Position numbers and translations under genes: made by a program | Shown here: positions 2 through 15,736 of the stretch, piece after piece | Layout: every line of letters starts with the position of its first letter | How positions within the stretch are numbered: the first letter of the stretch is position 1 | DNA from: a virus | Direction: 5' to 3' (one strand) | Virus record (IMG/VR): IMGVR_UViG_3300048112_000078 | Location: 1-23,191 of that record | DNA: 23,191 bases | Notes under the pieces: model-generated | The model's database searches: none | Told to the model about the DNA's origin: nothing | What the model saw: only the letters and a program-made list of their open reading frames with translations

Positions 2-202
2 CTACCTCTTAATCAGTGTAGATTCTTTTTTAGTTTTAGGACCTGGTTTCTTGTGTGCCCACTTAGTTTTCTTGGGCTTCTTTGGACGTTGGGCTATACG
101 CTGTGCGTCATTGGCAATTGGCTTTATTACTGTTGCAACTGCGCCGGCACTCATGCCTCCAACTGATGCTGTTTCGTTTATTATAATATCTGAAATCTTC
201 AT
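2..202 (-). CDS. Small basic protein with capsid-targeting-like N-terminus
   Basis: A 66-residue protein of unknown function. The N-terminus MKISDIIINE fits the pattern shared by five other proteins here (M-[KR]-hydrophobic-x-[DE]-hydrophobic, ending in [LIV]-x-E). It resembles the T4 capsid-targeting sequence, which gp21 cuts after such a Glu; the predicted cut is after Glu10. A short Gly/Ala-rich stretch follows, then a strongly basic tail from about residue 38 (many Lys, with Pro and a WAHKKPGPK segment), as expected for a DNA-associated internal head protein. A late promoter element sits exactly 5 nt before the ATG with no Shine-Dalgarno between, so the mRNA may be leaderless. The stop codon lies at the left edge, so the gene is complete. 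That the gene is real is likely; the internal-head role is inference. Confidence 0.7.
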   Translation of the reverse strand: MKISDIIINETASVGGMSAGAVATVIKPIANDAQRIAQRPKKPKKTKWAHKKPGPKTKKESTLIKR

Positions 203-207
203 ACTGT

Positions 208-215
208 TATTTATC
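208..215 (-). promoter_or_regulatory. T4-type late promoter element GATAAATA
   Basis: On the minus strand this reads GATAAATA, followed by ACAGT and then the ATG of the 66-residue gene. T4 late promoters (TATAAATA) start transcription about 5 nt beyond the element, which here is the A of the ATG. It lies in the 18-base gap after the upstream gene. Confidence 0.65.
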
Positions 216-220
216 TTTCT

Positions 221-1474
221 TTAAAAGATTTTAGTAAAATCTGTATACACTTTTAGCCAGTCGCTTGTATCTTTTCTAATATTTTCTAAAATGAATGTAC
301 AATTGTCTTGAAATATGTTATAATTATGTTCAGCACATTCAATACTTTGCTCAACTACGTCTTGCCACATAGCAGGATTGTCCTTTTTCATTTGTAATAT
401 TTCTAAATTATCCACCAACATATCAATTTTGTGTATAATGTTTGTTTCAGTATCATATAATTGCATATTGTCAAACAAATGGTCGTATGTTTTATATCCC
501 ATTTGTTGTAAATGTTGATTTATACGGTTTGGGCCAAGCAATATAAACGGTTGCTTTTGTATGATAGGCTTAAAAACTTTTTCAGTAAAGTATAAACAAT
601 TGCCTACGGTGGATTCTGTTATTAATTGTATGTCGCAGTCAAACATGTTAGCATAAAACGTACTACTATTACTCATAGTTCTCATATGGACAATATCGTC
701 ATCTCTGTCATCAAACTTTATAGGGTAATTTTGCGACAATGCTTCTAAATAATTAACACCTTTTTGTATGTCTGCAATACTTGTAAGATTTTTACTAAAG
801 TATTCCATTGTGTTTGCTGTAATTTTTTCAAAAGGCACATCTGGACTGCTTAGTATATTATCTTGTAGCCTGTGCTTTATAAATGCTCCTAATAATAATG
901 CTCTGTGTGGCTTGGGTGCATTGTTTAAGCAATTAAATAAATGTGTTTTAGGTGTGCTAAAATCAAATTCATCGTTAATTTCTAACTCAAGCATTGTGTC
1001 TTCTTTATAATTCCTAGTGTATAGCACATCAAAAGTGTCGTAGTTAAACGTTTTAAATATATCTGCTATATTGACGCAACTATTACCGTAAAACACTGTA
1101 GTGAGCTTGTATGACTGTGTAACTTGGTGAATAAACTCGAATATGTCCTTATCGCAATGCCCTTCTGCCCCATTCTCAAACAGAACTATTGCATGTGGGT
1201 TGTTTGTTATAAACTTAGGTATTAGTAAATGTTCAGTGTTGTACTGTTGCCATGTGTTAAAAATTACACTGGAATCGAATCCGTCTAGACTAATCACATA
1301 CAATACAGGTTCCATTAAGTAAACAGGTTGATCTTTATGATTAGGGTGTGTCCAATTAAAACATTCGTTCATTGCAAATATAGATTCACGTGAAGTTGCT
1401 GGTACATGAGACACATCAAGGCCACAGTCTTGCATAAATTGTTTAAATGGATTATGGATGTCCGCTATAAGCAT
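221..1474 (-). CDS. Glycosyltransferase-like protein with TEK-FKPI motif (copy 1)
   Basis: A 417-residue soluble protein with no signal peptide or membrane segment. The most telling segment is near the C-terminus: TEKVFKPI at about residues 297-304, then PFILLGPN and a G-x-KTYD stretch. Such a 'TEK-x-FKPI ... PF ... G' block is common in marine phage proteins and resembles the SEK-containing donor-binding region of GT10/fucosyltransferase-like enzymes, so sugar transfer (to virion, host surface or DNA) is possible but unproven. A second protein with the same block lies at 13023-14231. The gene starts 13 bases beyond the stop of the SOD-ParB gene. The near-late element TTAAATA is 5 nt before its ATG, and there is no clear Shine-Dalgarno. 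The reading frame is certain; the function is tentative. Confidence 0.75.
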   Translation of the reverse strand: MLIADIHNPFKQFMQDCGLDVSHVPATSRESIFAMNECFNWTHPNHKDQPVYLMEPVLYVISLDGFDSSVIFNTWQQYNTEHLLIPKFITNNPHAIVLFENGAEGHCDKDIFEFIHQVTQSYKLTTVFYGNSCVNIADIFKTFNYDTFDVLYTRNYKEDTMLELEINDEFDFSTPKTHLFNCLNNAPKPHRALLLGAFIKHRLQDNILSSPDVPFEKITANTMEYFSKNLTSIADIQKGVNYLEALSQNYPIKFDDRDDDIVHMRTMSNSSTFYANMFDCDIQLITESTVGNCLYFTEKVFKPIIQKQPFILLGPNRINQHLQQMGYKTYDHLFDNMQLYDTETNIIHKIDMLVDNLEILQMKKDNPAMWQDVVEQSIECAEHNYNIFQDNCTFILENIRKDTSDWLKVYTDFTKIF

Positions 1475-1479
1475 AGCAG

Positions 1480-1487
1480 TATTTAAC
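1480..1487 (-). promoter_or_regulatory. Degenerate late promoter element GTTAAATA
   Basis: On the minus strand this reads GTTAAATA-CTGCT-ATG. It has one mismatch to ATAAATA but the same 5-nt spacing to the start codon as the elements at 208, 10934 and 19801. It overlaps the stop codon of the gene upstream. Because of the mismatch this call is weak. Confidence 0.35.
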
Positions 1488-2980
1488 TATTTCTTTTTCT
1501 TACCGGACTTCATGTTGGCACACCAGTGGTACATTTTTGACTTCTCTCCACTGCTGTCTTTTGCTTTTTTGCGTAGACTTGTAACTGAACCATCACAACT
1601 AGCGCCAGACTTCTTTACTCTGCCTGGACGACTTTTGCCTTTCACTTTGCCGTCAGCAAAGTTTTCGTCTAAAATTTCATCCGGTACTTCAAATTGCCAT
1701 ACAGTTGCTTGACCTTTATCATGCATCATTGCTGTAAGCCTAGTGTTACCGCCTATCAATTCCTTGTGCCCATCACTGTAAACAGCCACAATAGGCATTT
1801 CTACTTTACCACTTTTTAATTGTGCTGTTGCACGTTTTTGTTTTTGTGGATCCAATGTTTTAAAACTGTCAACATCTGCCGCATCTGTGTTGTTGATATC
1901 TTTGGCGCTCACAATAGTTGTTGCTTTTCCTTTACTAGCAAGTTCGACCCAACCGTCTTTGCCTAATTTTTTAAACTCTGGATAACGTTGTGCTTCATCC
2001 CATTCCACATCAAACTGTGGCTTATTCATTTTTGTTTCCAACAGATTCTTAAAGTAATTTTCTGCCATTACTGCTCTGTCACTTGTGGTGTGGTCAAATG
2101 CTTTCATTACGTCTTCAATGTCTGCATCTATCATTATAGTTTTTACTTTCTTAATACCTAATACATTGGCGGCATCAAATCTATGATGGCCATTAATAAG
2201 GTATCCTTTCTTATCTACTATAAACGGCTTGTCTTCGTTGTTTAAAAATACATCCTGAGACTTCTTTGCTAATCCGTCTACACGCTGAGTCTGTACAGGC
2301 TTAATTTTGTCTATGCTCATTGTTCCTTCTTTGTACTTGAACTCTGAGCCTACTAAATGTTTTCTTTTAATTTGTGGTAATTGATTTCTATCAAATGTTT
2401 TCTCATATACTGGTCTAGTATAACTTTCTTCTACGCTCTTTCTTAAACGTACAACTCCACATGCTAACCTATCACCTGCGTTACCTGTTTTAAGACTTTC
2501 TTCATCTCCGCCTGTGCCTAAGTCATCTTCATCAGCATGTATAACTATTGCTCTACCAACAATACTTCTGTCGCCGCTTAGGTCAATACGCCTTGCAACA
2601 ATTTTAAATCTTGCTATACCATCGTCATTGGCAACTATGTTTCCTAAATCACCTATATGCCCGTCTGATAAGCCGCCATGGTCAACACCTTCTGGATTGT
2701 AATGCCCACCAGCACTTTCACAACCTTTACTAAGGTCCCCAAATTCATGTACATGGAATCCGTGCTTGCCTGATGTAAGTCCTTTTATTATACCTCGTAT
2801 AATAGTAGGCTTGCCGGGGTCTTGTTTCATAACTATAGCACCACTGATATCGCCTTCAGTGTGTTCTAGTTGTACAACTGCTTTAACTACTTCCTGTGCT
2901 TCTTGTATAGCACTTAAACTACTACACTCGCAAACCTTTGCTTTTGTTCGTGGGCAACTTATAAAATCACTCGACTTCAT
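1487..2980 (-). CDS. Cu/Zn superoxide dismutase fused to two ParB-like domains and a Cys/basic tail
   Basis: A 497-residue fusion. Residues about 33-178 are a complete Cu/Zn superoxide dismutase domain. They hold GFHVHEFGD (copper ligands H76, H78), the bridging H93, zinc ligands H101, H108 and D111, H148 before the DDLG loop, the R171 position, and the disulfide pair C87/C174. All metal ligands of the family are present, so O2- dismutation is expected. Residues about 220-295 form a ParB/sulfiredoxin-like domain with GHHR (264-267). A second such domain (about 390-432) carries GGNTRLTA (410-417). The tail (about 448-497) is basic with C462 and C487. No signal peptide is seen, unlike most bacterial SodC. 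The start overlaps the stop of the giant gene as TAATG, so the two are translationally coupled. The ParB part may bind or cut DNA, or bind CTP; that is unknown. Confidence 0.9.
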   Translation of the reverse strand: MKSSDFISCPRTKAKVCECSSLSAIQEAQEVVKAVVQLEHTEGDISGAIVMKQDPGKPTIIRGIIKGLTSGKHGFHVHEFGDLSKGCESAGGHYNPEGVDHGGLSDGHIGDLGNIVANDDGIARFKIVARRIDLSGDRSIVGRAIVIHADEDDLGTGGDEESLKTGNAGDRLACGVVRLRKSVEESYTRPVYEKTFDRNQLPQIKRKHLVGSEFKYKEGTMSIDKIKPVQTQRVDGLAKKSQDVFLNNEDKPFIVDKKGYLINGHHRFDAANVLGIKKVKTIMIDADIEDVMKAFDHTTSDRAVMAENYFKNLLETKMNKPQFDVEWDEAQRYPEFKKLGKDGWVELASKGKATTIVSAKDINNTDAADVDSFKTLDPQKQKRATAQLKSGKVEMPIVAVYSDGHKELIGGNTRLTAMMHDKGQATVWQFEVPDEILDENFADGKVKGKSRPGRVKKSGASCDGSVTSLRKKAKDSSGEKSKMYHWCANMKSGKKKK

Positions 2981-5900
2981 TAAAGTACACCTGTCAGTAT
3001 TTGTGGAGTTCCTTTACTCCTGTCATCAAAGAAGTCCATACCGCCATTAAGTTTAACTTTTCCGCTATCTAATAATTGTTTCATATCAGATGCATCTTTA
3101 ATCATTACATACTCACCTGTAGCAGTATTAAATATCATTATGTAATCATGTCCTTCTTTTAATTTGTAATAGTCGTGTCCTAATGCAACAAAATTAAATA
3201 TTGCTTCTTTAGGATCTATTTCGTTACCTGAATACGAACTTATCATTTTCTTGAACGCATCTGTATTTTCAGGAACATCGATGTAAAAGCCTTTTGCAAT
3301 AGCATGTAATATTTTTTCTGCAGAACCGGCGGGAGTTTTCTCTAACACTTTGTTCATGTTCTTAATACCTGCCATATTAAAGTTTAAGTTGAAGTATGTT
3401 AATCCTTTAACTTTACCATTCCATCCAAATTGTTCCAAATCATCTTCTGTTATACCAAGATCCATAAATGCTTGTTTAACAACTTGTCTTGCGCCAGAGC
3501 CGCCATTGTATCCGCCAGTTGAGTACAATCTGCCGCCAGACCTACTCTTCTTGCCACTTTTGCCAATAGACGTTCCATCTGCTTTAACTTCAACACCTTT
3601 GCCGTCAATAAGTACTAAATCACTTTTTTCTGCTAAGTCTATTCCGCCACCGGTTAGTGCTAACAGAAACTCGCCCGGGCCTTGATCTGGTCCATATCCC
3701 ATTGCACCTCTAAGTTGTAACGCTATCGGTTTTGCTAATGCGTTAGCAATTGGATTGGAAGATAACATGTCGTATATGTTGCCTGTTAGGTTAGATATAA
3801 GAACATTGCCTGACCATAAACCGTTACCTGTGCCTAAGTCTTTTAAGAATTTATCTTTACTGGCAAAATCTCCAGGTGTCTCCAACACTAAGTTTGCAAT
3901 CTTTTGATCTAAGTCGCCTTTTACACCTTGTGATATATTGGCAGTGATTGCCGCATGTGCCAATTCTGTAATTTCATTTTTCTTTAAAAATGCAACCAAT
4001 TTATTTAATTCTGTTACATCCTCTACCTGCCCAATTAAGTCGAATGCCTCTTGTTTTAATTGTGCTAAATCTTCTTTTACTAGTTGTTGCTTGTCGTCAT
4101 GTTGTTCATAGTCTTGGTCGGCATCTTGTTCTGAGGCTTCAGGCTCTTGTTTGCTTACAATACTTCTTAAATAATTAACTACAGTTGCTAAAACTGACTG
4201 AGTAGAAGATTTTTGTACTAACTCTTTAGCATCTGATTTATTATCTGATTCGGTTAACAACAAGTTTTTAATATGTTGTTTGCTCCATTCAGTCATTCTA
4301 ATTTTTGCTTTTGTTTCGTCGGGTAAAACACCTACAAACATTTGCAATATGTTTCTAGCACATGCATCATCGCCTGCTTCAGCTCTTAGTTGTCTAAAAT
4401 GATCTAACATTGCAGGTACAGGAATCGCCTGATAGGCTAACATCTGTTTTTTAAGATCTCCTACTGGAAAATGATCTGACATTAATCTGTTAATAGTATC
4501 TACTTGTTTAAAGTCTGGTACACTTTCTTCGATATTAGCATGGCTCATATTTCGATCATGTACATACGAACCAGGGTCTTTTTCAAATTCTTTATCTTTA
4601 ATTTTTTTAAGATCCCTTTGATCTTTAGTAAAACCTTTATTGTTAAATCCAAACGAACCTTTAGGTTTTCTGCCAATCTGAGGAATTTTCTTTATACTTT
4701 TAACCCCTAACTCTTTTTTGCTGACATCTTTTCCGTTGCCTAATTTCCTTCTGACACCATATGTACTCTGTGCTATCACTTCTTCAGTTCTACCATCTTT
4801 GTATGATACTTTCCATTTATGGTATCCGCTAGGTAAATCATCTTTGTTTTCGTAAAGTTTATCAATTTTGTCTTTGCTAACTTTATTAATAATATTAATT
4901 TGCTCTTCTAATGGCAAACCGTCGAATTCATCGAATGCATTTTCTTTATTCATTTTCCATACCGTTGCTGATGTTGGACTAAAAGGTTCACCATCTGGGC
5001 CCTTTGCTACATCTGGTGTAACTAATGGAGCAAAGTTAGGTTCTCTACCGTCGCCCAATTCATCAGTGAACTCTACTCCTCTTTTTTGTAGTATTTGCTT
5101 AATGTTAGATTCGTTATAAGATACAAAATGGTCAAATACACTTTCGTAATCGTAGCCGTATTTGTTTATAAATCTAGTTTTCATTTCCTCAGCAACTGGC
5201 CATCTCCAGTTATCTTTATATTTTTCTGGATTATTTAATATTTCAATAGCATCTCTAATTGCACTGCTGTGTGCCCACGGCATAATTAATATGTCTTTGT
5301 AATTAGTTGAGTGTATTGAATTGCTTTGTTGAAGTCTGGAAGTTAATTCTCTTTCGCCTAGTGTACTAAGCTCTTTAGCAAATTCTTTTTTGACCATTAC
5401 GTCACCACCAAAACTAAATGCTTTTATCTTAGCAATTGATGGATCGCCATGTTTCTTCATAAACTGTTTTTGTTTTTTAGGAAGTTGTTTTTTCTTGTCA
5501 ACATCAATACCAGTACTATCAAAGCCTAACTCTTTGCCGAGCTTGTCTACTGTGTTTATAAACTTAGATATAGCATCAGTTCTAGTTTTAATTAGTTCAG
5601 GCAGTTTGCCTCTAGTAAATACGTCAGCACCATACTTTGCTTTAGCAAGATGATTTCTTTCGAATACATCATTTAAATATTGTTGTAGTTGTTGCTGTAC
5701 TTGAATTAAAGGAGTTTCAGAAAAAGGATCTGCTCCAGCTGGGTTTGCCAACTGTCTAGCAATTGTTGTCAATGTTTCTGCTTGTGACGATCTCATACCA
5801 AAGTAATCTAGACCATCTTGTGACATACCGTGAGCCTCATCACCTTTTAATGAAGGGTCCATTTCTGGCATCATTTTATCTGTGGCTTGTACCGCTGATA

Positions 5901-8900
5901 ATAATTCTGTTAAAGATTTACTTACAACCTTTAGCATATCGTAGTGTTGTGCTGGTTGCACATCTTTCATACGTTGTATTTCTTCAAATCTCTTTCTTAA
6001 GTTAATTTGCATTTTACTAAGTGCATTATCTGTATAAGAATCATCTCCGCTTACTTGTGGGTTATGACCTTTCTTAACTGGGTGGTTCCACTCTTCATAA
6101 TCTGCTAAGTGAGTGAGTAATTTCTTTAGTCCTGCTTTATTAACTGGAGAGCCTACTGGAAACCAACTGTTGTCACTATTAATGCCGGTACTGTTATAAG
6201 AACCTCTTGTCATATCTTGATTGAATTTTTTAAATTCATTCTTGTTAACACTATCCCATGCCGCGGCTACTGTTTCTGCATTTACATTAGTAGCACTTGC
6301 TAAAGCATTAAAGAATTTTTTATTTTGTTCGCCATCTTGTAATGCACCACTTTGTGATGCCGACCACATTCCCTTAACAATTTTGTCACTTTCTGGTCCA
6401 CTTAAAAAAGCAGGAAGTGTAATAATACTTTTCTTAAATAATTTGTCAACACCGTTTTGTATTGTGGTTAACTTCTTTTGTGGTGTTGATTGTGCCTGAT
6501 TAGGAACTTGTACTCTATCTTCTTGTTGTAGTATTAATTTAGCCAACTTATCATATGTAAGTTCAAAGTCTGCTAGAGATTTTCTAAATTCACCAATGGA
6601 TTTCGCATTAGGTTTTGCTCTACTTTTGTTTGAACTAAGGTCAAATCCTGCCTGTCCAATTGCCAGTGCAAAGTTTTCCTGTGCTTTTTTCAAATACAAT
6701 GGTGCTTGTTTACTTGGTGCTTGTTTGTAAGGCCTTGTAATAGGTTCCTGTGCCTGTAAAGGCTCCATTTCTTCTACTTCTTCTACTTCCACCTTCTTGC
6801 CTGTTCTCTCTTCATAATCTGCAAGTGCTTGTTTCCACTGCTCATCTGCATTTGGCTGAGAGAATTCTCTATATCTAATTAGACTGTTTACTGCTACAGC
6901 AACCGAATCCATTGAATCAATGTAAATGGCTTTATCAAAGTAGTCTTTAATAACATCTACAATAGGTAGTTCTACATCGAATCTACCTTTAACACGTTCT
7001 ATATCTTTTGCATCAATTTCATCTAAACTGTTTATTAGTTTGAATAATGCTTTTACATAGTCTGCATTATACATTTTATCACTGTATGCCGCACTTAATG
7101 TTTCAGCATAACGTATAACTGCTTTTGCGGCTGTATCAAAGTTTAAATGATAGTCATTGCCGCCACCAATTCTAAATTCGATAAGTTGATTACCTGTCTG
7201 ACTATCAGTTTGGTCTTTAAAGTTTATAGAACTAAACTTGCCTGGATTAATACCTTTTTTAAGAATATTTTCTATGTTTTTTATAGTCTTGGTGTTTTCT
7301 GGACTCGATTTTAAGTCTTGTGCGGCTTTCTTTAAACTTTCAATCTGTGACTTTGCATAACTGTTGTTTGATCTACCAAATGTACTCAACAAGTATTTGT
7401 CGCCTAACAGTACAGCAAGTTTAACTGGATTTACTTCTTCCTTTTCTTCGCTGTCTAAACTCATTGTAATGTGTAATCCACAACTACTGTTCGTTTCTAC
7501 ATTTTCCTTTTGGAACCAATCGAACAGGCTTTTCATTTCTTCCATCATTTGCTTAGGTGTATCGTAAACAGGAGAAATAACTTCTGCGCCTGTGCCTCCA
7601 TCTGTTTCAATACTGCTGTCAGTCTCTACACGCCAAAAGTCATTGTTAGTACCATAACTCGAGTGATACTCACCATGTTCCACATCATCACTAACTTTAC
7701 TGTTATCGGTGGCCCAATTTCTTAACATGTCTGCTACTTCACCTACACCTTCGCCTGAGCCGTTTTCGTTATACAAGTAAATACCGTGTTCACCTAAACA
7801 ACTACTCCAACTACCGTATTCTCTATTAGCCCATTCATCGTGATCATATTCAGATTCAGCTGTCTCAACTGCTGTTTCTAATGCTTCGCCATTGTCTCTG
7901 ATTTTCTCTTCGAGCCACTCAATGTATTCATCTTCTCGTTGTTCTTCGGCATACTGTCTGCCCCATGCAATAAAGTCCCAATCTTCGAACTCTTCTTTTT
8001 GCTCATCGTCCATACCTTCTAATTCTTCTTCTTTGTACGCTTCTATATCATCTTCGTCTAGCATTGATTCAACAAAATCATTTAACTCATCTTCATCTTC
8101 TTTTCTATCTGCGACTATGTCTTGCATTATCTCGCCTTCTAAATCATATGCTTTCTCATATATCCATTCTCTGTATGCTTCATTGATTGTTTCAACACTG
8201 CCACTGCCTTCTTGGTCTCTAATAAAGTCTTCAATGTCGTACCAATTGTATTCGTACAACCAGTCGTCGTCATCACTTCCGCTGTCCATAACATCCTGGA
8301 ATACTGTTTCTGCTTCGAATCCACATTTAATAGGACTGTTAAGTGCCTGCTGTGCAATATTTTTTCTATTAAAGTTTATTTCAAATATTTGTTCAGGTCC
8401 TTGTTCACGCAATTTAAATTTACGCACAAGTTTTTTCATATTAGTTTTTAGTTTGGCAAGTCTTTTTTTGCTGTGCTTTTTAATGTTAAAAGAAGATGCA
8501 GTAGACTTACTCAACTTGGAAAGTTTACTAGCATTAAGTACTTGTACTTCTTCATCTGGGTCGACTAATTGGTACTCACCTTTGGGATCTTGTATTACAA
8601 CTTTGTCTGGATTTGGCTTGTTTCCAACTTTACTAACTACTTTTCCTGCTACTTCGCCTTTATCGTTGTGATATTCTGCATCAACTTCTATATCCTTTGC
8701 TTTAGACTTCGTGTAAGTTGGTTCTACTTTCTCAGGCTCTGCATCTTTAACATCTAATCCAGGTGTCACTGTTGGACTACCTTTATCTACTTTAGTAGTT
8801 GTAGGAGTTGTAGGTTTAGCATTTGCTTTTGCTGTTGCCCCAGTCTTTTGTTGACTAGTGGGTGTACTTGCTCCGGAACTCATACCATATTCTGCTAGTA

Positions 8901-8934
8901 CACTTTCTAAAGTTCTCACATCCGTAAATTTCAT
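2980..8934 (-). CDS. Giant multidomain protein: amidoligase-like N-part, PD-(D/E)XK nuclease-like C-part
   Basis: A 1984-residue protein. The N-terminus MKFTDVRTLESVLAE fits the capsid-targeting pattern (predicted cut after E15). A Thr/Pro/Lys-rich linker follows, then a Lys-rich helix (about 150-175). Residues about 200-620 resemble the GCS-like putative amidoligase fold: GFEAE (205-209), an acidic insert rich in Asp/Glu (about 215-370), a D-S-S-I patch (439-442), GAEVISP (449-455), SCGLHIT (484-490) and EFRIGGG (586-592). Such enzymes join carboxyl and amine groups. The middle 1100 residues are unrecognised, mostly helical with Gln/Lys-rich stretches. About 1740-1800 looks like a PD-(D/E)XK nuclease: E1755 in GPGE, D1772, then E1782-V-K1784. 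It starts 4 bases beyond the stop of the basic-protein gene, with no promoter of its own. The domain calls rest on motifs only; the open frame itself is beyond doubt. Confidence 0.9.
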   Translation of the reverse strand: MKFTDVRTLESVLAEYGMSSGASTPTSQQKTGATAKANAKPTTPTTTKVDKGSPTVTPGLDVKDAEPEKVEPTYTKSKAKDIEVDAEYHNDKGEVAGKVVSKVGNKPNPDKVVIQDPKGEYQLVDPDEEVQVLNASKLSKLSKSTASSFNIKKHSKKRLAKLKTNMKKLVRKFKLREQGPEQIFEINFNRKNIAQQALNSPIKCGFEAETVFQDVMDSGSDDDDWLYEYNWYDIEDFIRDQEGSGSVETINEAYREWIYEKAYDLEGEIMQDIVADRKEDEDELNDFVESMLDEDDIEAYKEEELEGMDDEQKEEFEDWDFIAWGRQYAEEQREDEYIEWLEEKIRDNGEALETAVETAESEYDHDEWANREYGSWSSCLGEHGIYLYNENGSGEGVGEVADMLRNWATDNSKVSDDVEHGEYHSSYGTNNDFWRVETDSSIETDGGTGAEVISPVYDTPKQMMEEMKSLFDWFQKENVETNSSCGLHITMSLDSEEKEEVNPVKLAVLLGDKYLLSTFGRSNNSYAKSQIESLKKAAQDLKSSPENTKTIKNIENILKKGINPGKFSSINFKDQTDSQTGNQLIEFRIGGGNDYHLNFDTAAKAVIRYAETLSAAYSDKMYNADYVKALFKLINSLDEIDAKDIERVKGRFDVELPIVDVIKDYFDKAIYIDSMDSVAVAVNSLIRYREFSQPNADEQWKQALADYEERTGKKVEVEEVEEMEPLQAQEPITRPYKQAPSKQAPLYLKKAQENFALAIGQAGFDLSSNKSRAKPNAKSIGEFRKSLADFELTYDKLAKLILQQEDRVQVPNQAQSTPQKKLTTIQNGVDKLFKKSIITLPAFLSGPESDKIVKGMWSASQSGALQDGEQNKKFFNALASATNVNAETVAAAWDSVNKNEFKKFNQDMTRGSYNSTGINSDNSWFPVGSPVNKAGLKKLLTHLADYEEWNHPVKKGHNPQVSGDDSYTDNALSKMQINLRKRFEEIQRMKDVQPAQHYDMLKVVSKSLTELLSAVQATDKMMPEMDPSLKGDEAHGMSQDGLDYFGMRSSQAETLTTIARQLANPAGADPFSETPLIQVQQQLQQYLNDVFERNHLAKAKYGADVFTRGKLPELIKTRTDAISKFINTVDKLGKELGFDSTGIDVDKKKQLPKKQKQFMKKHGDPSIAKIKAFSFGGDVMVKKEFAKELSTLGERELTSRLQQSNSIHSTNYKDILIMPWAHSSAIRDAIEILNNPEKYKDNWRWPVAEEMKTRFINKYGYDYESVFDHFVSYNESNIKQILQKRGVEFTDELGDGREPNFAPLVTPDVAKGPDGEPFSPTSATVWKMNKENAFDEFDGLPLEEQINIINKVSKDKIDKLYENKDDLPSGYHKWKVSYKDGRTEEVIAQSTYGVRRKLGNGKDVSKKELGVKSIKKIPQIGRKPKGSFGFNNKGFTKDQRDLKKIKDKEFEKDPGSYVHDRNMSHANIEESVPDFKQVDTINRLMSDHFPVGDLKKQMLAYQAIPVPAMLDHFRQLRAEAGDDACARNILQMFVGVLPDETKAKIRMTEWSKQHIKNLLLTESDNKSDAKELVQKSSTQSVLATVVNYLRSIVSKQEPEASEQDADQDYEQHDDKQQLVKEDLAQLKQEAFDLIGQVEDVTELNKLVAFLKKNEITELAHAAITANISQGVKGDLDQKIANLVLETPGDFASKDKFLKDLGTGNGLWSGNVLISNLTGNIYDMLSSNPIANALAKPIALQLRGAMGYGPDQGPGEFLLALTGGGIDLAEKSDLVLIDGKGVEVKADGTSIGKSGKKSRSGGRLYSTGGYNGGSGARQVVKQAFMDLGITEDDLEQFGWNGKVKGLTYFNLNFNMAGIKNMNKVLEKTPAGSAEKILHAIAKGFYIDVPENTDAFKKMISSYSGNEIDPKEAIFNFVALGHDYYKLKEGHDYIMIFNTATGEYVMIKDASDMKQLLDSGKVKLNGGMDFFDDRSKGTPQILTGVL

Positions 8935-8937
8935 GTA

Positions 8938-9219
8938 TTATCGCCTGTTTAATGTTCTTAATCTTCTACTTGCAGGATTAAGTCTTTTTGTTCTTTGCGA
9001 CTTTCTAGAAAGTCTTTTGCCCATTCTTGCTTTTGTTTTTTTCAACGTCATACGTTTTTTCATATTGACAGGGGCAGAACATTGTGCTGGGCTACTAACT
9101 ACTCTACCTTTACGTCTGCCACTAGTACATCTAACAGCACGTTTGATCTTCTTACCACTTCTACGCCAAACCATCCTGGCTTCGGTAATTGTATCTTCTG
9201 TTATATCTTCTAATCTCAT
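8938..9219 (-). CDS. Very basic small protein with capsid-targeting-like N-terminus
   Basis: A 93-residue protein. The acidic N-terminus MRLEDITEDTITEARM has an I-T-E|A site at E13 (another at E8) and fits the capsid-targeting pattern. Everything after it is extremely rich in Arg and Lys, with two Cys (in the segments VRCTSG and AQCSAP). Removing the acidic leader would leave a DNA-binding, histone-like peptide, as for T4 internal proteins. A Cys/basic segment also ends the SOD-ParB protein in the same operon. The start overlaps the stop of the membrane protein gene as TAATG. Function as an internal head or DNA-condensing protein is inferred. Confidence 0.75.
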   Translation of the reverse strand: MRLEDITEDTITEARMVWRRSGKKIKRAVRCTSGRRKGRVVSSPAQCSAPVNMKKRMTLKKTKARMGKRLSRKSQRTKRLNPASRRLRTLNRR

Positions 9220-9467
9220 TATTTTCCAAATACATTAACCAGCAAACCAATTACTACGGCAATAAGTGTTGTGAAACTTGTTCCAACAATTGCCACTAAC
9301 CAGTTCTCTAATTTATTCAGTCTTTGTTTTGTATCTTCTTTAAACTCTCTCAGCTCAGTAGTGATACTTTCTATTCTCAGCATGTCTGCAATAATATGTG
9401 CTTCTAAGTTACCCTTTTCTGCATACACTTCTTGTTCAACTGGTTTTGGTTGATTACGTTCTTCCAT
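9219..9467 (-). CDS. Small membrane protein with coiled coil, XhlA/holin-like
   Basis: An 82-residue protein, taking MEERNQPK as the start. That ATG lies just past the stop of the gene upstream, with AGGA about 11 nt before it; a longer frame to 9530 would overlap that gene by 62 bases. Residues about 25-55 form an amphipathic, heptad-like helix (LRIESITTELREFKEDTKQRLNKLE, split by no proline), followed by one hydrophobic segment (WLVAIVGTSFTTLIAVVIGL) reaching nearly to the C-terminus. A soluble helix plus a C-terminal anchor is the layout of XhlA-type proteins, which work with holins in lysis. No endolysin is next to it, so it could instead be a virion membrane or tail protein. Confidence 0.6.
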   Translation of the reverse strand: MEERNQPKPVEQEVYAEKGNLEAHIIADMLRIESITTELREFKEDTKQRLNKLENWLVAIVGTSFTTLIAVVIGLLVNVFGK

Positions 9468-9468
9468 T

Positions 9469-9873
9469 TTATAATAAATCCTGTTTAGTAAATTCCATAT
9501 TAATACTTGTTTTAGTATTAATTGTCCCATCGTTTAAAACGACAAGGTCTAACTCGTCTATTAATGTCTGTACCGTGTGTGCTCCGGGCTGTTCTGTCGC
9601 GAACTTAAAGATATAACCTGCACCTGTTAAACTTGGTGCTCCGTAATTCTCTAGTAAGTTCTGCCCTGTGCCATTTAAAAATACAGGATTATTCATCACT
9701 GTTGGCATAGCTCTTAAACCAATTACCTGAACAACGCTCTCAAAATCTTTTTGTGTAGCATCTGCAAAATCACCAGTTACGGATATATCCAACGATGTAA
9801 ACAATGTAAAAAATTCTATGTTACCAGTTAGTACTTCTACTGATCCCATTGCTCCTGCTCTTGTTATACTCAT
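9469..9873 (-). CDS. Conserved small protein, possibly virion (MSITRAGA type)
   Basis: A 134-residue protein taken from the ATG at 9873, which follows GGAG by 6 nt. A longer frame up to 9906 is rejected because it would begin upstream of the predicted late transcript start (about 9891). The opening (M-x-x-x-R-x-G-A, then L-x-G-x-x-x-F-F) resembles that of the 109-residue protein at 9993-10322, so the two may be distant paralogues. No enzyme motif, signal peptide or membrane segment is seen. Late promoter, strong ribosome site and small beta-rich sequence suggest a virion component, but this is inference. It is the first gene of the operon that leads to the giant and SOD proteins. Confidence 0.7.
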   Translation of the reverse strand: MSITRAGAMGSVEVLTGNIEFFTLFTSLDISVTGDFADATQKDFESVVQVIGLRAMPTVMNNPVFLNGTGQNLLENYGAPSLTGAGYIFKFATEQPGAHTVQTLIDELDLVVLNDGTINTKTSINMEFTKQDLL

Positions 9874-9896
9874 GTGTGTCTCCGTGTTATTTGTAG

Positions 9897-9904
9897 TATT
9901 TATC
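9897..9904 (-). promoter_or_regulatory. T4-type late promoter element GATAAATA
   Basis: GATAAATA on the minus strand, between the terminator at 9940-9969 and the 134-residue gene. The predicted start at about 9891 gives a short leader of roughly 18 nt that contains the GGAG ribosome site. It probably drives the operon from 9873 to at least 1487. Confidence 0.7.
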
Positions 9905-9939
9905 ATTATGCACAGAAATATGGCTCAGGAACGAAAGCC

Positions 9940-9969
9940 AAAAAAAAGCACACCGTAGTGTGCTTTTTT
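9940..9969. terminator. Bidirectional Rho-independent terminator
   Basis: A perfect 6-bp stem GCACAC/GTGTGC (9948-9953 and 9958-9963) with loop CGTA, an A-run on the left (9940-9947) and a T-run on the right (9964-9969). On the minus strand the left A-run becomes the U-tract, so it ends the transcript of the 109-residue gene, 24 bases beyond its stop. It would work in both directions. Confidence 0.88.
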
Positions 9970-9992
9970 AAATGTTGTTAAAGTAGTTAAAC

Positions 9993-10322
9993 TTACGCTA
10001 CTCTGTATTCACCAGCTGTTACAGTTGCGTTTGCACCGTTACCAGATAATGCTGGTTGGATTGCCGCTAATACGTCTGCCGCTGAAGGTTGACCTTCTAC
10101 TGCTACATGCATTACTGTTGCTGAAACAGAAGTAATGATAACTGGTGTACATCTTGTTGCTAAAGCTGAAATTAATGCTTCACCTTTGTTTGCCACACCT
10201 GCTGTGAAACCAAATGAACTAATGTCATCTGTTCCGTCTACTTCGTCGATGATGAAGTGACTTAAAGAACCAACTAATAATTGACCTTCTTCTGCCGCTC
10301 CGTTTACTCTTACTTGTGCCAT
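9993..10322 (-). CDS. Small late protein, possible virion/decoration protein
   Basis: A 109-residue protein (MAQVRVNGAAEEG start) of unknown function. It is Ala/Val/Gly-rich, with no Cys except in ATRCTP and no membrane segment; its make-up looks like a compact beta protein. It forms a transcription unit of its own: late promoter at 10375-10382, a leader of about 47 nt with a 7-bp stem-loop and AGGAG before the ATG, and a strong terminator just downstream. Such a unit suggests high late expression, as for an abundant virion protein. Its opening resembles that of the protein at 9469-9873. The structural role is inferred from the setting and not from a recognised domain. Confidence 0.75.
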   Translation of the reverse strand: MAQVRVNGAAEEGQLLVGSLSHFIIDEVDGTDDISSFGFTAGVANKGEALISALATRCTPVIITSVSATVMHVAVEGQPSAADVLAAIQPALSGNGANATVTAGEYRVA

Positions 10323-10344
10323 GTTATTCTCCTAAACTTGGTAT

Positions 10345-10362
10345 GTATGCTCTTCAGCATAC
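10345..10362 (-). promoter_or_regulatory. Stem-loop in late mRNA leader
   Basis: A perfect 7-bp inverted repeat (GTATGCT / AGCATAC) with a 4-base loop, just after the predicted start of the late transcript and about 12 bases before the AGGAG site. There is no U-tract, so it is not a terminator; a 5' stabilising hairpin or translation control element is more likely. Confidence 0.6.
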
Positions 10363-10374
10363 GCTTGTTACTTT

Positions 10375-10382
10375 TATTTATC
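10375..10382 (-). promoter_or_regulatory. T4-type late promoter element GATAAATA
   Basis: GATAAATA on the minus strand upstream of the 109-residue gene. The predicted transcript starts near 10369, giving a leader of about 47 nt that contains the stem-loop and AGGAG. Confidence 0.72.
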
Positions 10383-10390
10383 AATTTCTA

Positions 10391-10422
10391 CCAAAAAATG
10401 GTGTAAATAGTTTTGCTATTTA
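10391..10422 (-). terminator. Weak possible terminator after the 170-residue gene
   Basis: A 7-bp AT-rich inverted repeat TAAATAG/CTATTTA (10404-10410 and 10416-10422) overlaps the TAG stop. On the minus strand it is followed by CACCATTTTTT. The stem is weak and the T-run is 5 nt away, so the call is tentative. Confidence 0.3.
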
Positions 10423-10928
10423 GTTGTAGAACCTATTATATTCTTAAGTTGTTGTGCCCTTTTAGATGCTTTATTTTTGCCAGCATCGTAGTTTGACTTT
10501 GCAGTTTGTTTAACATCAAAGGATGCCGGGCCTTTTGGGGCCTTAGCCGCTTTAGGTTTCCTCAAATGCCCATGGGTTATATCGTCCCAACCCTTGTTTA
10601 CACTTTTGCTAGGACCAATGTCTAGTCCTTTTCTTGGCTGTTTATTTGGGCTACTAGTTTTTGCCGCAGAATTACGTCTCATTACCTTATCTTCTATCTC
10701 AGGGTGTACTTGTACCATTGCCATCTTAACTGCTATACCCGGAGTAATACTGGGACCACCTGTGGTAAATTTGCCAATTGCTACAGACTTTACAGCCGCT
10801 TTGTCTACACCTTCGTATCCAGGACGTCTGTTTCCAGGAGGACCAATCTCATCATCAATCTCACTGTCAATCATCTCAGCCGTTGATTGTTCTTCTCCTA
10901 GTTTTTGTATAATTTCGTAAATCTTCAT
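10416..10928 (-). CDS. Basic protein with capsid-targeting-like N-terminus
   Basis: A 170-residue protein of unknown function. MKIYEIIQKLGE fits the capsid-targeting pattern (predicted cut after E12, L-G-E). The rest is low in hydrophobic residues and probably largely disordered: an acidic stretch (about 18-30), a middle part with TGGPSITPGI, then a Lys-rich C-terminal half with repeated KAxKxPK-like stretches. This suits a DNA-associated internal head protein. A perfect TATAAATA element ends 5 nt before the ATG with no ribosome site between; the upstream gene ends at 10937 inside that element, so read-through transcripts could also supply translation. Confidence 0.72.
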   Translation of the reverse strand: MKIYEIIQKLGEEQSTAEMIDSEIDDEIGPPGNRRPGYEGVDKAAVKSVAIGKFTTGGPSITPGIAVKMAMVQVHPEIEDKVMRRNSAAKTSSPNKQPRKGLDIGPSKSVNKGWDDITHGHLRKPKAAKAPKGPASFDVKQTAKSNYDAGKNKASKRAQQLKNIIGSTTK

Positions 10929-10933
10929 ATCTA

Positions 10934-10941
10934 TATTTATA
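10934..10941 (-). promoter_or_regulatory. Perfect T4-type late promoter element TATAAATA
   Basis: TATAAATA on the minus strand, then TAGAT, then the ATG at 10928. The predicted transcript start is the A of the ATG. The element overlaps the last codons of the upstream gene (10937-11680). Confidence 0.7.
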
Positions 10942-11680
10942 CCTTTTTTCGTCCGCTGGCCCAGTAGCCTGCAATCTTTCCTATACCTGACCCTGTTGTG
11001 CCTTGTATTTTAGTCTTAGTAAGTGTTGGTATTACTGGACTGTCCTTATAACCAGACTTTTTACTAGTGTCAGTATACTTTCTTTCTCTTTTCATAGCAT
11101 GTAAATGCTCGTATGAATCACTTGCTTTGCCTCTTAGCATTGTTTGTTGTTGCATTAACTTAGATACCACAAACTGCTTTTGGGCATATTTTAAATCTTC
11201 CCAATCTATAATCAAACGTCTTAACTGTTTAAAAAGAGAATTGTTTATTTTTAATTGTGTTTCTAATCTTACAAGAAATGCAGTTGTCTCACTTCTATTC
11301 GGTGGACGTACAGCCATTCTTTTTATAAAATTAAAATGTCGTCTGTTTTGAAATTGTACAGATTTTAATATTTTTTGTTCTCTAGTCGAGATGTTTAAAC
11401 TTTCATATTCAGGATGGTCTAAAGCAAATGCTAATACATATATATCAGTTGATGTTGTTCTAAAAAGTGCGTAAGGACCAAACTGTGTTGTCTTTCTTGC
11501 ATAACCAACGGAGTAATCTCGTTGCTTAGAATCTCTGTTAAACATAATAAGTTGTAGTGTTTGCAAATACAGTAAGTCTGCAATAGACCTACCTTTAAGC
11601 ATACCAAAGTTACTTGTTGTTCTTAACAATTTGCTTTCTGATAAATCCTGATTTATCATTTGGAAGTCGTATTGTGCCAT
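10937..11680 (-). CDS. Conserved basic protein of unknown function
   Basis: A 247-residue protein when begun at MAQYDFQMINQDL. That ATG sits one base beyond the TAG stop of the ligase-like gene and follows a GAG about 8 nt upstream; a start at 11707 would overlap that gene by 26 bases and is less likely. It is basic and helical: ADLLYLQTLQLIMF, a DIYVLAFALDHPEY segment, an Arg-rich patch (RRHFNFIKRMAVRPPNR), LFKQLRRLIIDWEDL, and a Lys/Gly-rich tail ending GRKKV. No catalytic motif is recognised. The setting among proteins with capsid-targeting leaders suggests a late, perhaps virion-associated role, although it lacks such a leader itself. Confidence 0.75.
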   Translation of the reverse strand: MAQYDFQMINQDLSESKLLRTTSNFGMLKGRSIADLLYLQTLQLIMFNRDSKQRDYSVGYARKTTQFGPYALFRTTSTDIYVLAFALDHPEYESLNISTREQKILKSVQFQNRRHFNFIKRMAVRPPNRSETTAFLVRLETQLKINNSLFKQLRRLIIDWEDLKYAQKQFVVSKLMQQQTMLRGKASDSYEHLHAMKRERKYTDTSKKSGYKDSPVIPTLTKTKIQGTTGSGIGKIAGYWASGRKKV

Positions 11681-11681
11681 A

Positions 11682-12977
11682 CTATGAGCTCGGCTTGCCT
11701 GATCCAAAGTTTAATCTACTAAACTCTAGTCTATCTACTAGTTTAAGAGCGTTACCAATTCTGTCTACAGCAACAAACCCTTCCTCTCCTGTAACTTCGA
11801 AACCTGAATCTGTTTGTACAAACGTTCCGATTTGTTTAATTTGTTCTAGTTTCTTAACAATCTTAATTTTTGCTTCAATGAGTTTTAAGTATAAGTCATA
11901 TACTGCTACAATGCTTGGAACATGCTCTTTAATAAACTTAACACCTTGTACCATCGCATCTGTTTTGGAATCTATGCTTTTTTGTGTTTTAACTTTTGCA
12001 ATTTCTTTTTGCATAAAGTCAATATACTTTTGTACAAAGCCTTGTGCAAATTTAGTAGGCTCATCAAAAGAACCTTGTCTAACTTGATTATTTGCATGTG
12101 CTTTTAATTGCTGTAAAAAGTTTTTACCTATTAAGTCTGTGCCTTGTTGCAACCACTTAAATGTGTCTGCATCAATAGACTTAAGATATTCATTTGCCAC
12201 AGTTATAGCATTTAGTATGCCATCACTTTGTTCAGCAGTCATTGTAACTGTGCCGCTAAGGTCTTTGATAAGTGCATCTCTGTGCCATACACCGTTTGCT
12301 TGTCCTAACACACTGCTGTCAAAACCAAAACTTGCATTTGTGTCTGCTAGTGTTGGACCACCTACATATTCTGTGTGCCACACTATGCCAAAACCTGCGT
12401 TTAATATTTGTTTTGCCATGTCGCTGTTCTTAGGAACAGCATAAGTTATTGTATTAGGTTTAAAAATTATATGCTCTTCGTTATCAAGAGTAACTGTTTT
12501 GATGTCTTCACTTCCAGCAAACAACATGTCGCCTTGTGCTACAGTGTCCCAATTTAAACGATCAAGATATTTAAGAGCTAATTTAAGTTTCTTTCTTAGA
12601 CCACTGCCGTCTTTATCGCCTTGGTCTGCATGATTTTCATCAATGTCTTTTTCTGTGAAATTTATTTTAGGTTTTTGTGCAAACACACCTTTAGTGCCTA
12701 CAAAAAACTTACCTGTTGCAGGATCTTTACCAGCAACAATAGCCGGTGCTCCATCCCATTTTGTGGTCATACTGATAGGTGACTTTGCATTACCGTCAAG
12801 CATAGAATGTAAACTGTATAAGTAGTCTACTGCTTCTTTGGCACCCGGATACCCTTTGTTAAAAATATTATCTTCTAAATGTTCTAAATGAGTATTTTTG
12901 CCATCCTTACCTTCTAGCAAGATGCTTTCACTAAGAATGGATGTGACTAATGGTTTTGATATTTCAATAAATTTCAT
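11682..12977 (-). CDS. RNA/DNA ligase-like nucleotidyltransferase with capsid-targeting-like N-terminus
   Basis: A 431-residue protein. It has features of the covalent nucleotidyltransferase superfamily (ligases and capping enzymes): motif I K73-W-D-G in TTKWDGAPAIV (Lys as AMP acceptor), a downstream GTKGVF, AQGDMLF as a motif III candidate, EGFVAVD as motif IV and LKLVDR as motif V near the C-terminus. The HLEHLED segment (30-36) before motif I is seen in marine phage relatives as I recall them. The N-terminus MKFIEISKPLVTSILSESILLEG has the shared leader pattern with L-S-E|S (E17) and L-L-E|G (E22) sites. Substrate (RNA, DNA or protein) cannot be told. It is first in its operon, with a late promoter and a GTGAG ribosome site. 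Confidence 0.78.
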   Translation of the reverse strand: MKFIEISKPLVTSILSESILLEGKDGKNTHLEHLEDNIFNKGYPGAKEAVDYLYSLHSMLDGNAKSPISMTTKWDGAPAIVAGKDPATGKFFVGTKGVFAQKPKINFTEKDIDENHADQGDKDGSGLRKKLKLALKYLDRLNWDTVAQGDMLFAGSEDIKTVTLDNEEHIIFKPNTITYAVPKNSDMAKQILNAGFGIVWHTEYVGGPTLADTNASFGFDSSVLGQANGVWHRDALIKDLSGTVTMTAEQSDGILNAITVANEYLKSIDADTFKWLQQGTDLIGKNFLQQLKAHANNQVRQGSFDEPTKFAQGFVQKYIDFMQKEIAKVKTQKSIDSKTDAMVQGVKFIKEHVPSIVAVYDLYLKLIEAKIKIVKKLEQIKQIGTFVQTDSGFEVTGEEGFVAVDRIGNALKLVDRLEFSRLNFGSGKPSS

Positions 12978-13001
12978 ATTAACTCACTATTATGTTACAT
13001 G

Positions 13002-13009
13002 TATTTATC
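13002..13009 (-). promoter_or_regulatory. T4-type late promoter element GATAAATA
   Basis: GATAAATA on the minus strand in the 45-base gap before the ligase-like gene. With the usual 5-nt offset the leader is about 19 nt and includes GTGAG just before the ATG, a normal leadered late message. Confidence 0.7.
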
Positions 13010-13022
13010 ACATTATAGCAGT

Positions 13023-14231
13023 TTATTTTATTTTCTTCAACTGCTTTATAAACGGATCAAAAAATGAGTTGTATGTTTCATCTGAATAAAAATTTTCGAT
13101 ATTGCGTTTTTCCCTATCAATATCTCTTACATAGTCTGTTTGCATAAACGTTCTTATGCTGTCCATAAGCATAGTCTGACGTTTAGAATAATCTGCTTCT
13201 GTATCGTATGAATGGTCTAGTACATCGTCATACACATCAAACCCTTGTTGTCTGAGGTATGATATTGAACCACAACTTGCTTGTACAAAGAAAGGCATGC
13301 CTATTGCAATAGGCTTGAATGTTTTTTCTGTTAAAAATACGTTACTGTCTGCCCACCATGTAGTAGTTTCAGTTACTATATTACACACACTGTTTGAATA
13401 GGCATCGTTAACATCTAAACCAGGGTGTTGTTCTTTATCCTTTGGACTATATTCCGATTTATCCTGTGCTCTGATAGGCAATAGATTCCATTGTTGTTTT
13501 AGGGTGTCATCGATCTGCTGTAGTTCGGTATCGCTAAGTGCTACACGCGATGGTCCCATATACTCATACAATGCCTTTGGCACGGTGTTATTATCCGTTA
13601 ATATGTTTCCTGATTTTGTTTGGGTTAATCCTAACCCATGAAAAGAAAAATACATGTCTTTAAAAAAATCTTCGTTAACTAAATTAGTAAACATGTGTAT
13701 TCTAGAAGGTCTTGCAACTCTATTTAAACAAGACAATTTATGCTGTTTATGTTGAGGTGGGGTAATCTTTGTTACGTGATTATATGTGAGAAAATAAAAC
13801 AAGTTAAAGTGTATTATGTTATAGTAAGGATCTGTTTGATTAGGGTCAGACGATAAAATAACTTTAGGCTCTTTAATACTGTCATACAAAGTGCGTATAT
13901 CAGCATTTTGCTTCAGCATTAATTTTTTACTTGCTTCTAAATTTTTGTGTCCGCCAGTTTGTGTGTCGCTATCTAAACCCATAAGATTTGGCTCACACGC
14001 AAAAAGTATAATAACAAGGTCTGGTTTGAACTCGGAGATTGTTAGTTCTCTATAGAAAGCCAATGTTGCAGGAATACAATACATTGTTCTATCGCATAAT
14101 ATAAGAATTTTTTTATCTAATTGTTGTGCAATATCATACCAAAAGGACTTCTCTAACGCAAAATATAAATCCTCTGCAGGATTGCTAATAAATTTGCAGT
14201 TGTCCGTGCCACTAATGTGTGGATTGTCCAC
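13023..14231 (-). CDS. Glycosyltransferase-like protein with TEK-FKPI motif (copy 2), GTG start
   Basis: A 402-residue soluble protein. The block TEKTFKPIAIGMPFFV (from residue 301), followed by SYLRQQGFDVYDDVLDHSYD, matches the block at the end of the 417-residue protein at 221-1474. Such blocks resemble the donor-site region of GT10-like glycosyltransferases. The N-terminal half (KKILILCDRTMY, then PDLVIILFACEP) could be a Rossmann-like part. The start is GTG, overlapping the TAG stop of the gene upstream (TAGTG) with AGG about 7 nt before it, so translation is probably coupled. The target of any sugar transfer is unknown. The two copies differ strongly outside the C-terminal block. Confidence 0.75.
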   Translation of the reverse strand: MDNPHISGTDNCKFISNPAEDLYFALEKSFWYDIAQQLDKKILILCDRTMYCIPATLAFYRELTISEFKPDLVIILFACEPNLMGLDSDTQTGGHKNLEASKKLMLKQNADIRTLYDSIKEPKVILSSDPNQTDPYYNIIHFNLFYFLTYNHVTKITPPQHKQHKLSCLNRVARPSRIHMFTNLVNEDFFKDMYFSFHGLGLTQTKSGNILTDNNTVPKALYEYMGPSRVALSDTELQQIDDTLKQQWNLLPIRAQDKSEYSPKDKEQHPGLDVNDAYSNSVCNIVTETTTWWADSNVFLTEKTFKPIAIGMPFFVQASCGSISYLRQQGFDVYDDVLDHSYDTEADYSKRQTMLMDSIRTFMQTDYVRDIDREKRNIENFYSDETYNSFFDPFIKQLKKIK

Positions 14232-15445
14232 TACATGCCTGCTAAGTTCTTAAGTTCCTGTATTTCAATTGCTTCATTTAACTCGTTCATTGCTACAATA
14301 GGAGTTAAGAACACAACATCACTTGCTTCTTCATGTAAGGATACTTTATAACCCGCTTGTTCCCAAGTAATACCTGCCGCTTCTAATACACTGTTTGCAT
14401 ACTCAAATGCTTCGGCTCTCATAGCTCTAACTTGTTTTACGAACTGACCATAAAACTCTGGTGCCGCTTTTTGTAGTCCTGATCTCTTAATAGCAGGAGT
14501 AATTGCTTGAACATATTTGTCAACATCATACTTTACATCATGTTTCTTTAACAATTCTAAAAACTGTTTTGCATGTTCTATTCTAGCACCCTGATCTTTG
14601 CCTTGGTCAACCATACCTTTTTGGTGTATTTTTATATCGTTCATATGTACACCTTGTAGTGGTAATTCAGGCTTTGGTGCTTGTACTTGTGGCTTTTTAA
14701 TCATTTTAGATGCTAGTCTGCCTAATCCAGCACCTGCAACTGCGCCTACTTTAGCGGCTGTACTTGCATCTGGATCTTGCATAGTGCCGGTTGCTAAAGG
14801 TCCGCCCATTGCCTTAGTTGCTCTGTCTTTCATCGCTTGTGCAAAGCCTTTAGTTGGTTCAACACCTTTTGCAATTGACATCAAGTCTTGTGCTACACCA
14901 TCAGTATCTTTTAAAGGATATGTTCCTGGTAAGTCTGTGATTATATCCTTTTCAGGTTCCCAGGCTTTCTTCTCACCCGGATTAACTTTTTTACCACTTC
15001 CTTTAAGTTCGATTGCCCTCCAGGCATATTTTCCATTTGGATTCGGTTCTGTTACCTGTTGACCGTCTTTATCTAATACAGGTACCATCTCACCTTCTGG
15101 GTTTTGAGGGTCTTGTTGCATTTTTACTTGTTGTTCTTGTGGTTGATATTGATATACAATACCATTAGGATCTGCCACTATAGCATTCTTTAAAGAATTT
15201 TTGAAACTTTGTTGTTTACCAAAGTCACTGATAGCGCCGCCTTGTGTAGCCTTAACTCGGTTATTACTAGCCTGCTTGTCAACTGACCTTTGGTATTTCT
15301 TTTCTTTTCCAACAGCTCGGTTATCTCTGGCGCCCATATCAGCATTTTTTAACTTAGGTGTTGCTGGTGCTGATCTACGTTTTTTTTCTATACCTCTGTC
15401 GCCGGTAAGTTCGTTTACTATATCACCAAATTCAAAAATTTTCAT
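14231..15445 (-). CDS. Large protein with capsid-targeting-like N-terminus, unknown function
   Basis: A 404-residue protein. MKIFEFGDIVNE fits the shared leader pattern (V-N-E, possible cut after E12). It is followed by a basic, polar, probably disordered part (about 13-110), a middle with KYAWRAIELKGSG, a Gly/Ala-rich helix (AAKVGAVAGAGLGRLASKMIK, about 229-249, of glycine-zipper type), and a helical C-terminal part (about 275-404). No enzyme motif is recognised. The ability of glycine-zipper helices to enter membranes would suit an ejected protein, but this is inference. It lies 2 bases after the coiled-coil gene, with GAG as ribosome site. Confidence 0.75.
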   Translation of the reverse strand: MKIFEFGDIVNELTGDRGIEKKRRSAPATPKLKNADMGARDNRAVGKEKKYQRSVDKQASNNRVKATQGGAISDFGKQQSFKNSLKNAIVADPNGIVYQYQPQEQQVKMQQDPQNPEGEMVPVLDKDGQQVTEPNPNGKYAWRAIELKGSGKKVNPGEKKAWEPEKDIITDLPGTYPLKDTDGVAQDLMSIAKGVEPTKGFAQAMKDRATKAMGGPLATGTMQDPDASTAAKVGAVAGAGLGRLASKMIKKPQVQAPKPELPLQGVHMNDIKIHQKGMVDQGKDQGARIEHAKQFLELLKKHDVKYDVDKYVQAITPAIKRSGLQKAAPEFYGQFVKQVRAMRAEAFEYANSVLEAAGITWEQAGYKVSLHEEASDVVFLTPIVAMNELNEAIEIQELKNLAGM

Positions 15446-15446
15446 A

Positions 15447-15704: not shown

Positions 15705-15726
15705 AAATAAATTCCCTATGTATCTG

Positions 15727-15734
15727 TATTTATC
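15727..15734 (-). promoter_or_regulatory. T4-type late promoter element GATAAATA
   Basis: GATAAATA on the minus strand, 3 bases beyond the helicase stop codon. It marks the switch from the replication operon to a late operon that runs from 15704 to 13023. Confidence 0.72.
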
Positions 15735-15736
15735 TT

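Follow-up and report, generated by a model that had tools for sequence, protein, structure and literature searches.

A shared N-terminal leader on unrelated phage proteins: a probable T4-type capsid-targeting propeptide

The leader-bearing genes of the window

IMG/VR record IMGVR_UViG_3300048112_000078, hereafter the window, is a whole contig of 23,191 bases and represents a fragment of a marine T4-like phage. Six of its 25 called genes, all on the minus strand, encode proteins that open with the pattern M-[KR]-[IFL]-x-[DE]-[IVF], with [LIV]-x-E following within 8-17 residues. The original prediction, drawn from this sequence alone, described these N-termini as a general capsid-loading tag on six unrelated late proteins. 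All six reading frames are present with exactly the claimed starts and N-termini, and sequence clustering (1,712 proteins from about 80 related contigs) places their bodies in separate families. Every one of the six leaders is short in the manner of T4 propeptides, measuring 8-17 residues depending on the site chosen (10-19 in T4). The shared N-terminus is probably a capsid-targeting propeptide of the T4 type, a reading to which we assign a probability of about 0.82. For comparison, 80 related viral loci were retrieved through the window's DUF6267 protein; the source of one of them, G001 (339,794 bp), is a near-complete relative used as reference.

The 66-residue basic protein (2-202) begins with MKISDIIINE/T (173-202; slashes mark predicted cuts), and its homologs begin with MRINEIIIKE/T in the relative G003 and MKIHDIIGE/T in G001. 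A modular giant protein of 1984 residues (2980-8934) carries the leader MKFTDVRTLESVLAE/Y (8890-8934). The very basic 93-residue protein (8938-9219) starts with MRLEDITEDTITE/A (9181-9219), a leader that offers two possible cut sites (MRLEDITE/DTITE/). Two further proteins have no assigned function: one of 170 residues (10416-10928; leader MKIYEIIQKLGE/E, 10893-10928) and one of 404 residues (14231-15445; leader MKIFEFGDIVNE/L, 15410-15445), the latter with a leaderless homolog in the relative G002. Two related proteins of a single sequence family (221-1474 and 13023-14231) are placed between leader genes.

The sixth gene (11682-12977) encodes a DUF6267 protein of 431 residues (PF19782, E=1.5e-100) with a KxDG motif and the leader MKFIEISKPLVTSILSE/S (12927-12977). 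Across 30 aligned proteins of this family the leader residues M1, E5 and E17 are invariant, E17 being the predicted P1 residue of the cut. The body residues K73-W74-D75-G76 are likewise invariant, and a search of PDB folds with the AlphaFold model (predicted local distance difference test, pLDDT, 70) found no significant match; the label of ligase or nucleotidyltransferase is thus a motif-based one only.

Other products of the window are a primase, a helicase of the gp41 type and a protein with a match to phrog_11778 (annotated as DNA polymerase). The helicase is nearest to those of Pseudomonas jumbo phages (the PA5oct group), followed by Atu_ph07. The late expression assumed in the original prediction is unproven: leader genes are co-oriented with and adjoin the helicase and primase genes, and the T4 late promoter TATAAATA occurs at one site in the window versus 3 expected by chance, which lends no support to late timing. 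This sole site (10934-10941) precedes the start of the leader gene at 10928 by 5 bases.

Distribution of the leader, its T4 counterpart and virion detection

When residues 2-24 of the window's N-termini were shuffled 300 times, a mean of 0.05 motif genes was obtained versus the 6 observed. In G001, the motif followed by L-x-E is found in 10 of 379 genes, compared with a mean of 0.41 and a maximum of 2 after column shuffling, which preserves the position-specific residue composition; phi30-3 has 7 motif genes, compared with 0.27 after column shuffling. A profile check over the N-termini of a relative, proposed together with the prediction, places 8 carriers among the 20 genes of the homologous G001 locus versus 2 among the 359 genes elsewhere (Fisher p=5e-10). 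These remaining two lie at 160.6 kb and at 274.5 kb, the latter between the portal gene and the gp21/gp22/gp23 genes. Two adjacent G001 genes (164216-164509 and 164493-164831) start with MNEMRKLMETVAPLFQE and MMNEIDRIKYLSGIINE and perhaps represent a second leader class.

Among the roughly 80 related contigs, the leader is common in about a dozen unrelated families. It is present in 75/81 DUF6267 proteins, 36/42 homologs of the 93-residue basic protein, 17/21 giant proteins, 42/70 proteins of the 14231 type and 27/48 of the 10416 type, as well as in smaller families. The family consensus reads M1, K/R2, I/F/L3, x4, E/D5, I/L/F/V6, then [LIVMF]-x-E ending mostly at residues 8-17. Leader families have an L-x-E ending at residues 8-22 in 143 of their 170 distinct N-termini, versus 195 of 577 in other families on the same contigs.

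The same body can also follow different leaders. DUF6267 bodies stand behind INFSKYITE/ in Melnitz, MYNDLLVE/ in HTVC008M and MMKFTQFLAE/ in DLP6. Another example is a P-loop kinase body (Zeta_toxin, PF06414, in the locus L236 and in HTVC008M), which follows MRFIDLQE/G in L236 and MIPFILKE/G in HTVC008M, while a similar body in Melnitz follows MKTFAELQE/G. Throughout these swapped leaders (Melnitz, HTVC008M, DLP6 and L236) [LI]xE always stands at the start of the body, and the leader appears to be replaceable on a given body.

The counterpart in T4 is the capsid-targeting sequence (CTS) of the gp21 substrates IPI-III and Alt. Both systems have a short N-terminal propeptide with K2, a hydrophobic pair three residues apart, an acidic residue before the second hydrophobic one, an [LI]-x-E end, diverse bodies and a T4-type protease. 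The leader described here differs in that its register lies one residue earlier (hydrophobic residues 3 and 6, not 4 and 7), it extends up to 17 residues, its carriers are far more numerous and larger than the T4 internal proteins, and its cleavage is predicted. T4 itself and Kyanoviridae mostly use the register shifted by one residue. As a positive control, the T4 genome contains MKTYQEFIAE, the internal-protein start cited in the original prediction, at two genes and MKTFKEFIKE at a third. Mutagenesis of the T4 CTS assigned residues 4 and 7 mainly to targeting, and 8 and 10 to processing (PMC9026906).

The T4-type gp21 protease (PF03420) is encoded by the relatives G001 and G002 rather than by the window fragment, in G001 together with gp23, and Peptidase_S77 is found in both relatives and in all seven named phages tested. 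In a gp23 alignment, the T4 cut LTE/A corresponds to LQE/S in G001, LSE/A in G002, LVE/N in PA5oct and L-x-E in four others. Given this conserved L-x-E at the gp23 cut, the specificity of the prohead protease is very probably conserved.

Virion evidence is available from notes in the GenBank record of the cultured relative PA5oct, which mark 93 proteins as 'ESI-MS/MS' (electrospray ionization tandem mass spectrometry); the PA5oct gene calls used in this analysis are fewer than the record annotates. The strict motif is carried by 7 of the 93 noted proteins versus 3 of 229 other called genes (Fisher p=0.0075), and the motif followed by L-x-E by 6 noted proteins versus 2 others (p=0.0084). One noted carrier, MKINDIITE/G, is encoded by the gene after the portal gene, the position of 67/68 in T4, and another, MKIKDILVE/S, is homologous to a G001 leader protein starting MRIAEVFLLE/S. 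Two G001 leader families have noted homologs in PA5oct, one of them being the Fe/Mn superoxide dismutase (SOD), which starts with MKLHDFLTE/D in G001 and with MNDSIKKYISIAE/A in PA5oct.

In the window, noted PA5oct homologs belong to three leaderless minus-strand neighbours: 9469-9873 (E=2e-27), 9993-10322 (E=1e-9) and 18929-19759, a homolog of a virion structural protein (phrog_14467; E=1.5e-46). These homologs mark the whole locus as one encoding virion proteins. The virion proteomics of MIJ3, with only four proteins listed, was set aside as a test, as was the virion proteome of CBB, a phage with no matches to either motif register. For S-CREM1, 14 virion proteins have been reported, the identities of which are not used here. 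Repeated small proteins that resemble SGNH hydrolases, with GCSFTxG/CGDSYTEG-like N-termini, occur at 17119-17916 in the window and are scattered genome-wide in G001 (155578, 156293, 158287, 207580 and 273683).

The giant protein and other candidate cargo

The 1984-residue protein contains an Amidoligase_2 domain at residues 423-559 (7258-7668; PF12224, E=3.2e-6). Toward its C-terminus lie a pre-tip module at residues 1471-1562 (4249-4524), bounded by IEE/ (1470), MTE/ (1549) and LTE/ (1562), and an exchangeable tip at residues 1563-1984 (2983-4248) with a conserved GPGE...EVK...GGR core. Pfam returned no zincin metallopeptidase domain in this protein at E<=0.01. The leader of the giant protein is also found on proteins of 720-941 residues with different middles.

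Over residues 1-1559 the giant proteins of the window and of the relative G004 share 97.5% identity; beyond that point blastp cannot align them, and in the DNA the replaced tip is flanked on both sides by 98-99% identity. The proteins of L208 and L212 are 65% identical in their N-terminal 900 residues and 98.6% identical in the last 220. Judged from these alignments, the C-terminal tip is exchanged between near-identical phages, and near-identical tips are found on diverged carriers (window, L208, L209, L211, L212 and G004). Co-exchange of an immunity gene with the tip is ruled out for the window and G004, whose downstream DNA is 98.9% identical. Many tips share the core GP[GA]E...E[VLI]K...G[GA]R, in which ExK is invariant, and so represent divergent versions of a single domain; the core is missing from another tip type. 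Pfam, PDB sequence and fold searches with the tip (AlphaFold model, pLDDT 74) gave no match, and by motif only it looks like a PD-(D/E)XK nuclease.

All 10 non-redundant module/tip junctions contain exactly two L-x-E in a 34-residue stretch, versus a mean of 0.63 in the remainder of these proteins. The junction total was not reached in any of 20,000 random placements, a descriptive result since the position of the stretch was chosen after the sites had been seen. Proteins without a tip can end right after such a site (INLNE/K). The simplest reading suggests that the giant protein is a capsid polyprotein with a swappable tip, cut by the prohead protease.

Another candidate, encoded beside the giant protein, is a 497-residue Cu/Zn SOD and ParB-like protein (1487-2980, minus strand; PF00080, E=7e-45). 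It lacks the strict leader and possibly has a longer propeptide ending AIQE/A at residue 27, and its role as capsid cargo is uncertain. The C-terminus of this protein is a KGKSRPGRVKK basic module (1490-1663), directly after an internal ILDE/; in G001 the module forms a gene by itself, headed by the leader MKIVEITE/NFADGK. At the equivalent place relatives encode a leader-bearing Fe/Mn SOD (11699-12265 in L236, starting MKFTDLHE/G; 194765-195304 in G001), and the PA5oct Fe/Mn SOD noted in the record is encoded at 172979-173527. The presence of two unrelated SOD families in equivalent places suggests that SOD activity is selected. L236 further encodes a zeta-toxin-like kinase with a leader-like N-terminus (12265-14985) and an ART-PolyVal protein (14982-15965), which starts MKITEVVGAP and has the motif with no clear L-x-E.

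Proposed capsid loading and its alternatives

By analogy with T4, cargo would be made with a leader of 8-17 residues (M-[KR]-hydrophobic-x-acidic-hydrophobic...[LIVF]-x-E), which would dock it to the scaffold core of the prohead before the shell closes. A gp21-like prohead protease would then cut after the Glu and free the mature protein inside the head, DNA would be packaged around the cargo, and the cargo would plausibly enter the cell together with the DNA. In a tentative extension of this scheme, this protease would also release the modules of the 1984-residue polyprotein, including the exchangeable tip, from one another by cutting at internal L-x-E sites.

Capsid loading as originally predicted is well supported by the dozen or so unrelated families, by gp21 with an L-x-E site in gp23 and by the enrichment in PA5oct, whose record notes, rather than the window's own phage, supply the virion detection. 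The leader is not universal among gp21-bearing T4-like jumbo phages: CBB (KU574722) has gp21 and an L-x-E gp23 site and has zero N-termini in either leader register. Several other observations also weigh against a capsid-targeting propeptide. Only 6 of the 93 noted PA5oct proteins fit the motif with L-x-E, most virion proteins being without it, and some entries on that list, ribonucleotide reductase among them, are probably contaminants. The window proteins with noted PA5oct homologs are leaderless neighbours and never one of the six, and a head-assembly gene is absent from the window itself. About one third of the 14231-type members are without L-x-E, and cleavage after the Glu, although likely, is taken over from T4.

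An alternative, unlikely yet serious, is that the leader loads proteins into the prohead where they act inside the virion, in DNA condensation, protection or assembly, with no delivery to the host. Several bodies are indeed small and very basic (66 and 93 residues), and an SOD could protect packaged DNA. However, the T4 internal proteins and Alt, which have a similar leader, are injected (PMC3012670; PMC5512222), and zeta-toxin-like and ART-PolyVal bodies make sense mainly in the host cytoplasm. It is improbable that the motif is an uncut docking peptide for the neck, tail, baseplate or a complex in the infected cell, as members without a clear L-x-E might suggest; against this stand the invariant P1 Glu of DUF6267, the occurrence of L-x-E where the body begins, seen in different phages, and the carrier in the gp20-gp21 interval, at the T4 67/68 position, whose PA5oct homolog is noted by mass spectrometry. 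Chance or a compositional bias of N-termini (K/R second, hydrophobic/acidic helix starts) has very little probability: M-K starts are common and the single weak cases in T4 and DLP6 are near the chance maximum, but the column shuffles of G001 and phi30-3 and the clustering in G001 run counter to it.

Parts of a capsid-targeting system of this kind are known elsewhere. That a CTS allows T4-like phages to incorporate various proteins has already been proposed by reviewers (PMC9026906; also PMC3012670). DarB of phage P1 demonstrates that a giant defence protein can carry an N-terminal capsid signal; it is likewise a very large head protein, with a packaging signal of <30 residues, whereas P1 lacks a separate scaffolding system of the T4 type and the Dar N-termini have no consensus comparable to the one motif shared here (PMC9024508). 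Polyvalent proteins of phages and conjugative elements are also multi-domain giants with predicted delivery alongside DNA, and ART-PolyVal and ParB-like domains occur at the present locus too. However, their processing is credited to built-in zincin peptidases, in contrast to the prohead-protease-type L-x-E at the junctions described here (PMC5512222). The SPN3US and phiKZ ejection proteins, which reside in the inner head of giant phages, have N-terminal propeptides with a cut after Glu, as is predicted here, but those propeptides are mostly >100 residues long with A-x-E sites, in contrast to the short T4-like leaders and L-x-E of this system (PMC5694885). A T4 CTS joined with giant polyvalent-type proteins was not found in the literature searched. 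While the CTS and polyvalent proteins are thus already known, the breadth of the leader, the possible protease-released polyprotein and the swappable tips set the present system apart.

At rather less than even odds, marine jumbo T4-like phages may possess a modular cargo system in which one leader serves many enzymes and other proteins (SOD, kinase, ART, ligase-like and DNA-binding), a giant polyprotein is cut into effectors by the prohead protease, and a nuclease-like tip is swapped by recombination as in polymorphic toxins.

Most genes of jumbo phages lack an assigned function. With a recognisable cargo tag, head proteins can be predicted across such a genome, and these are candidates for the first proteins put into the host. 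The findings further suggest a second role for the prohead protease, which may process injected effectors, as well as an exchange of effector tips between phages, and they make superoxide dismutase a possible carried enzyme.

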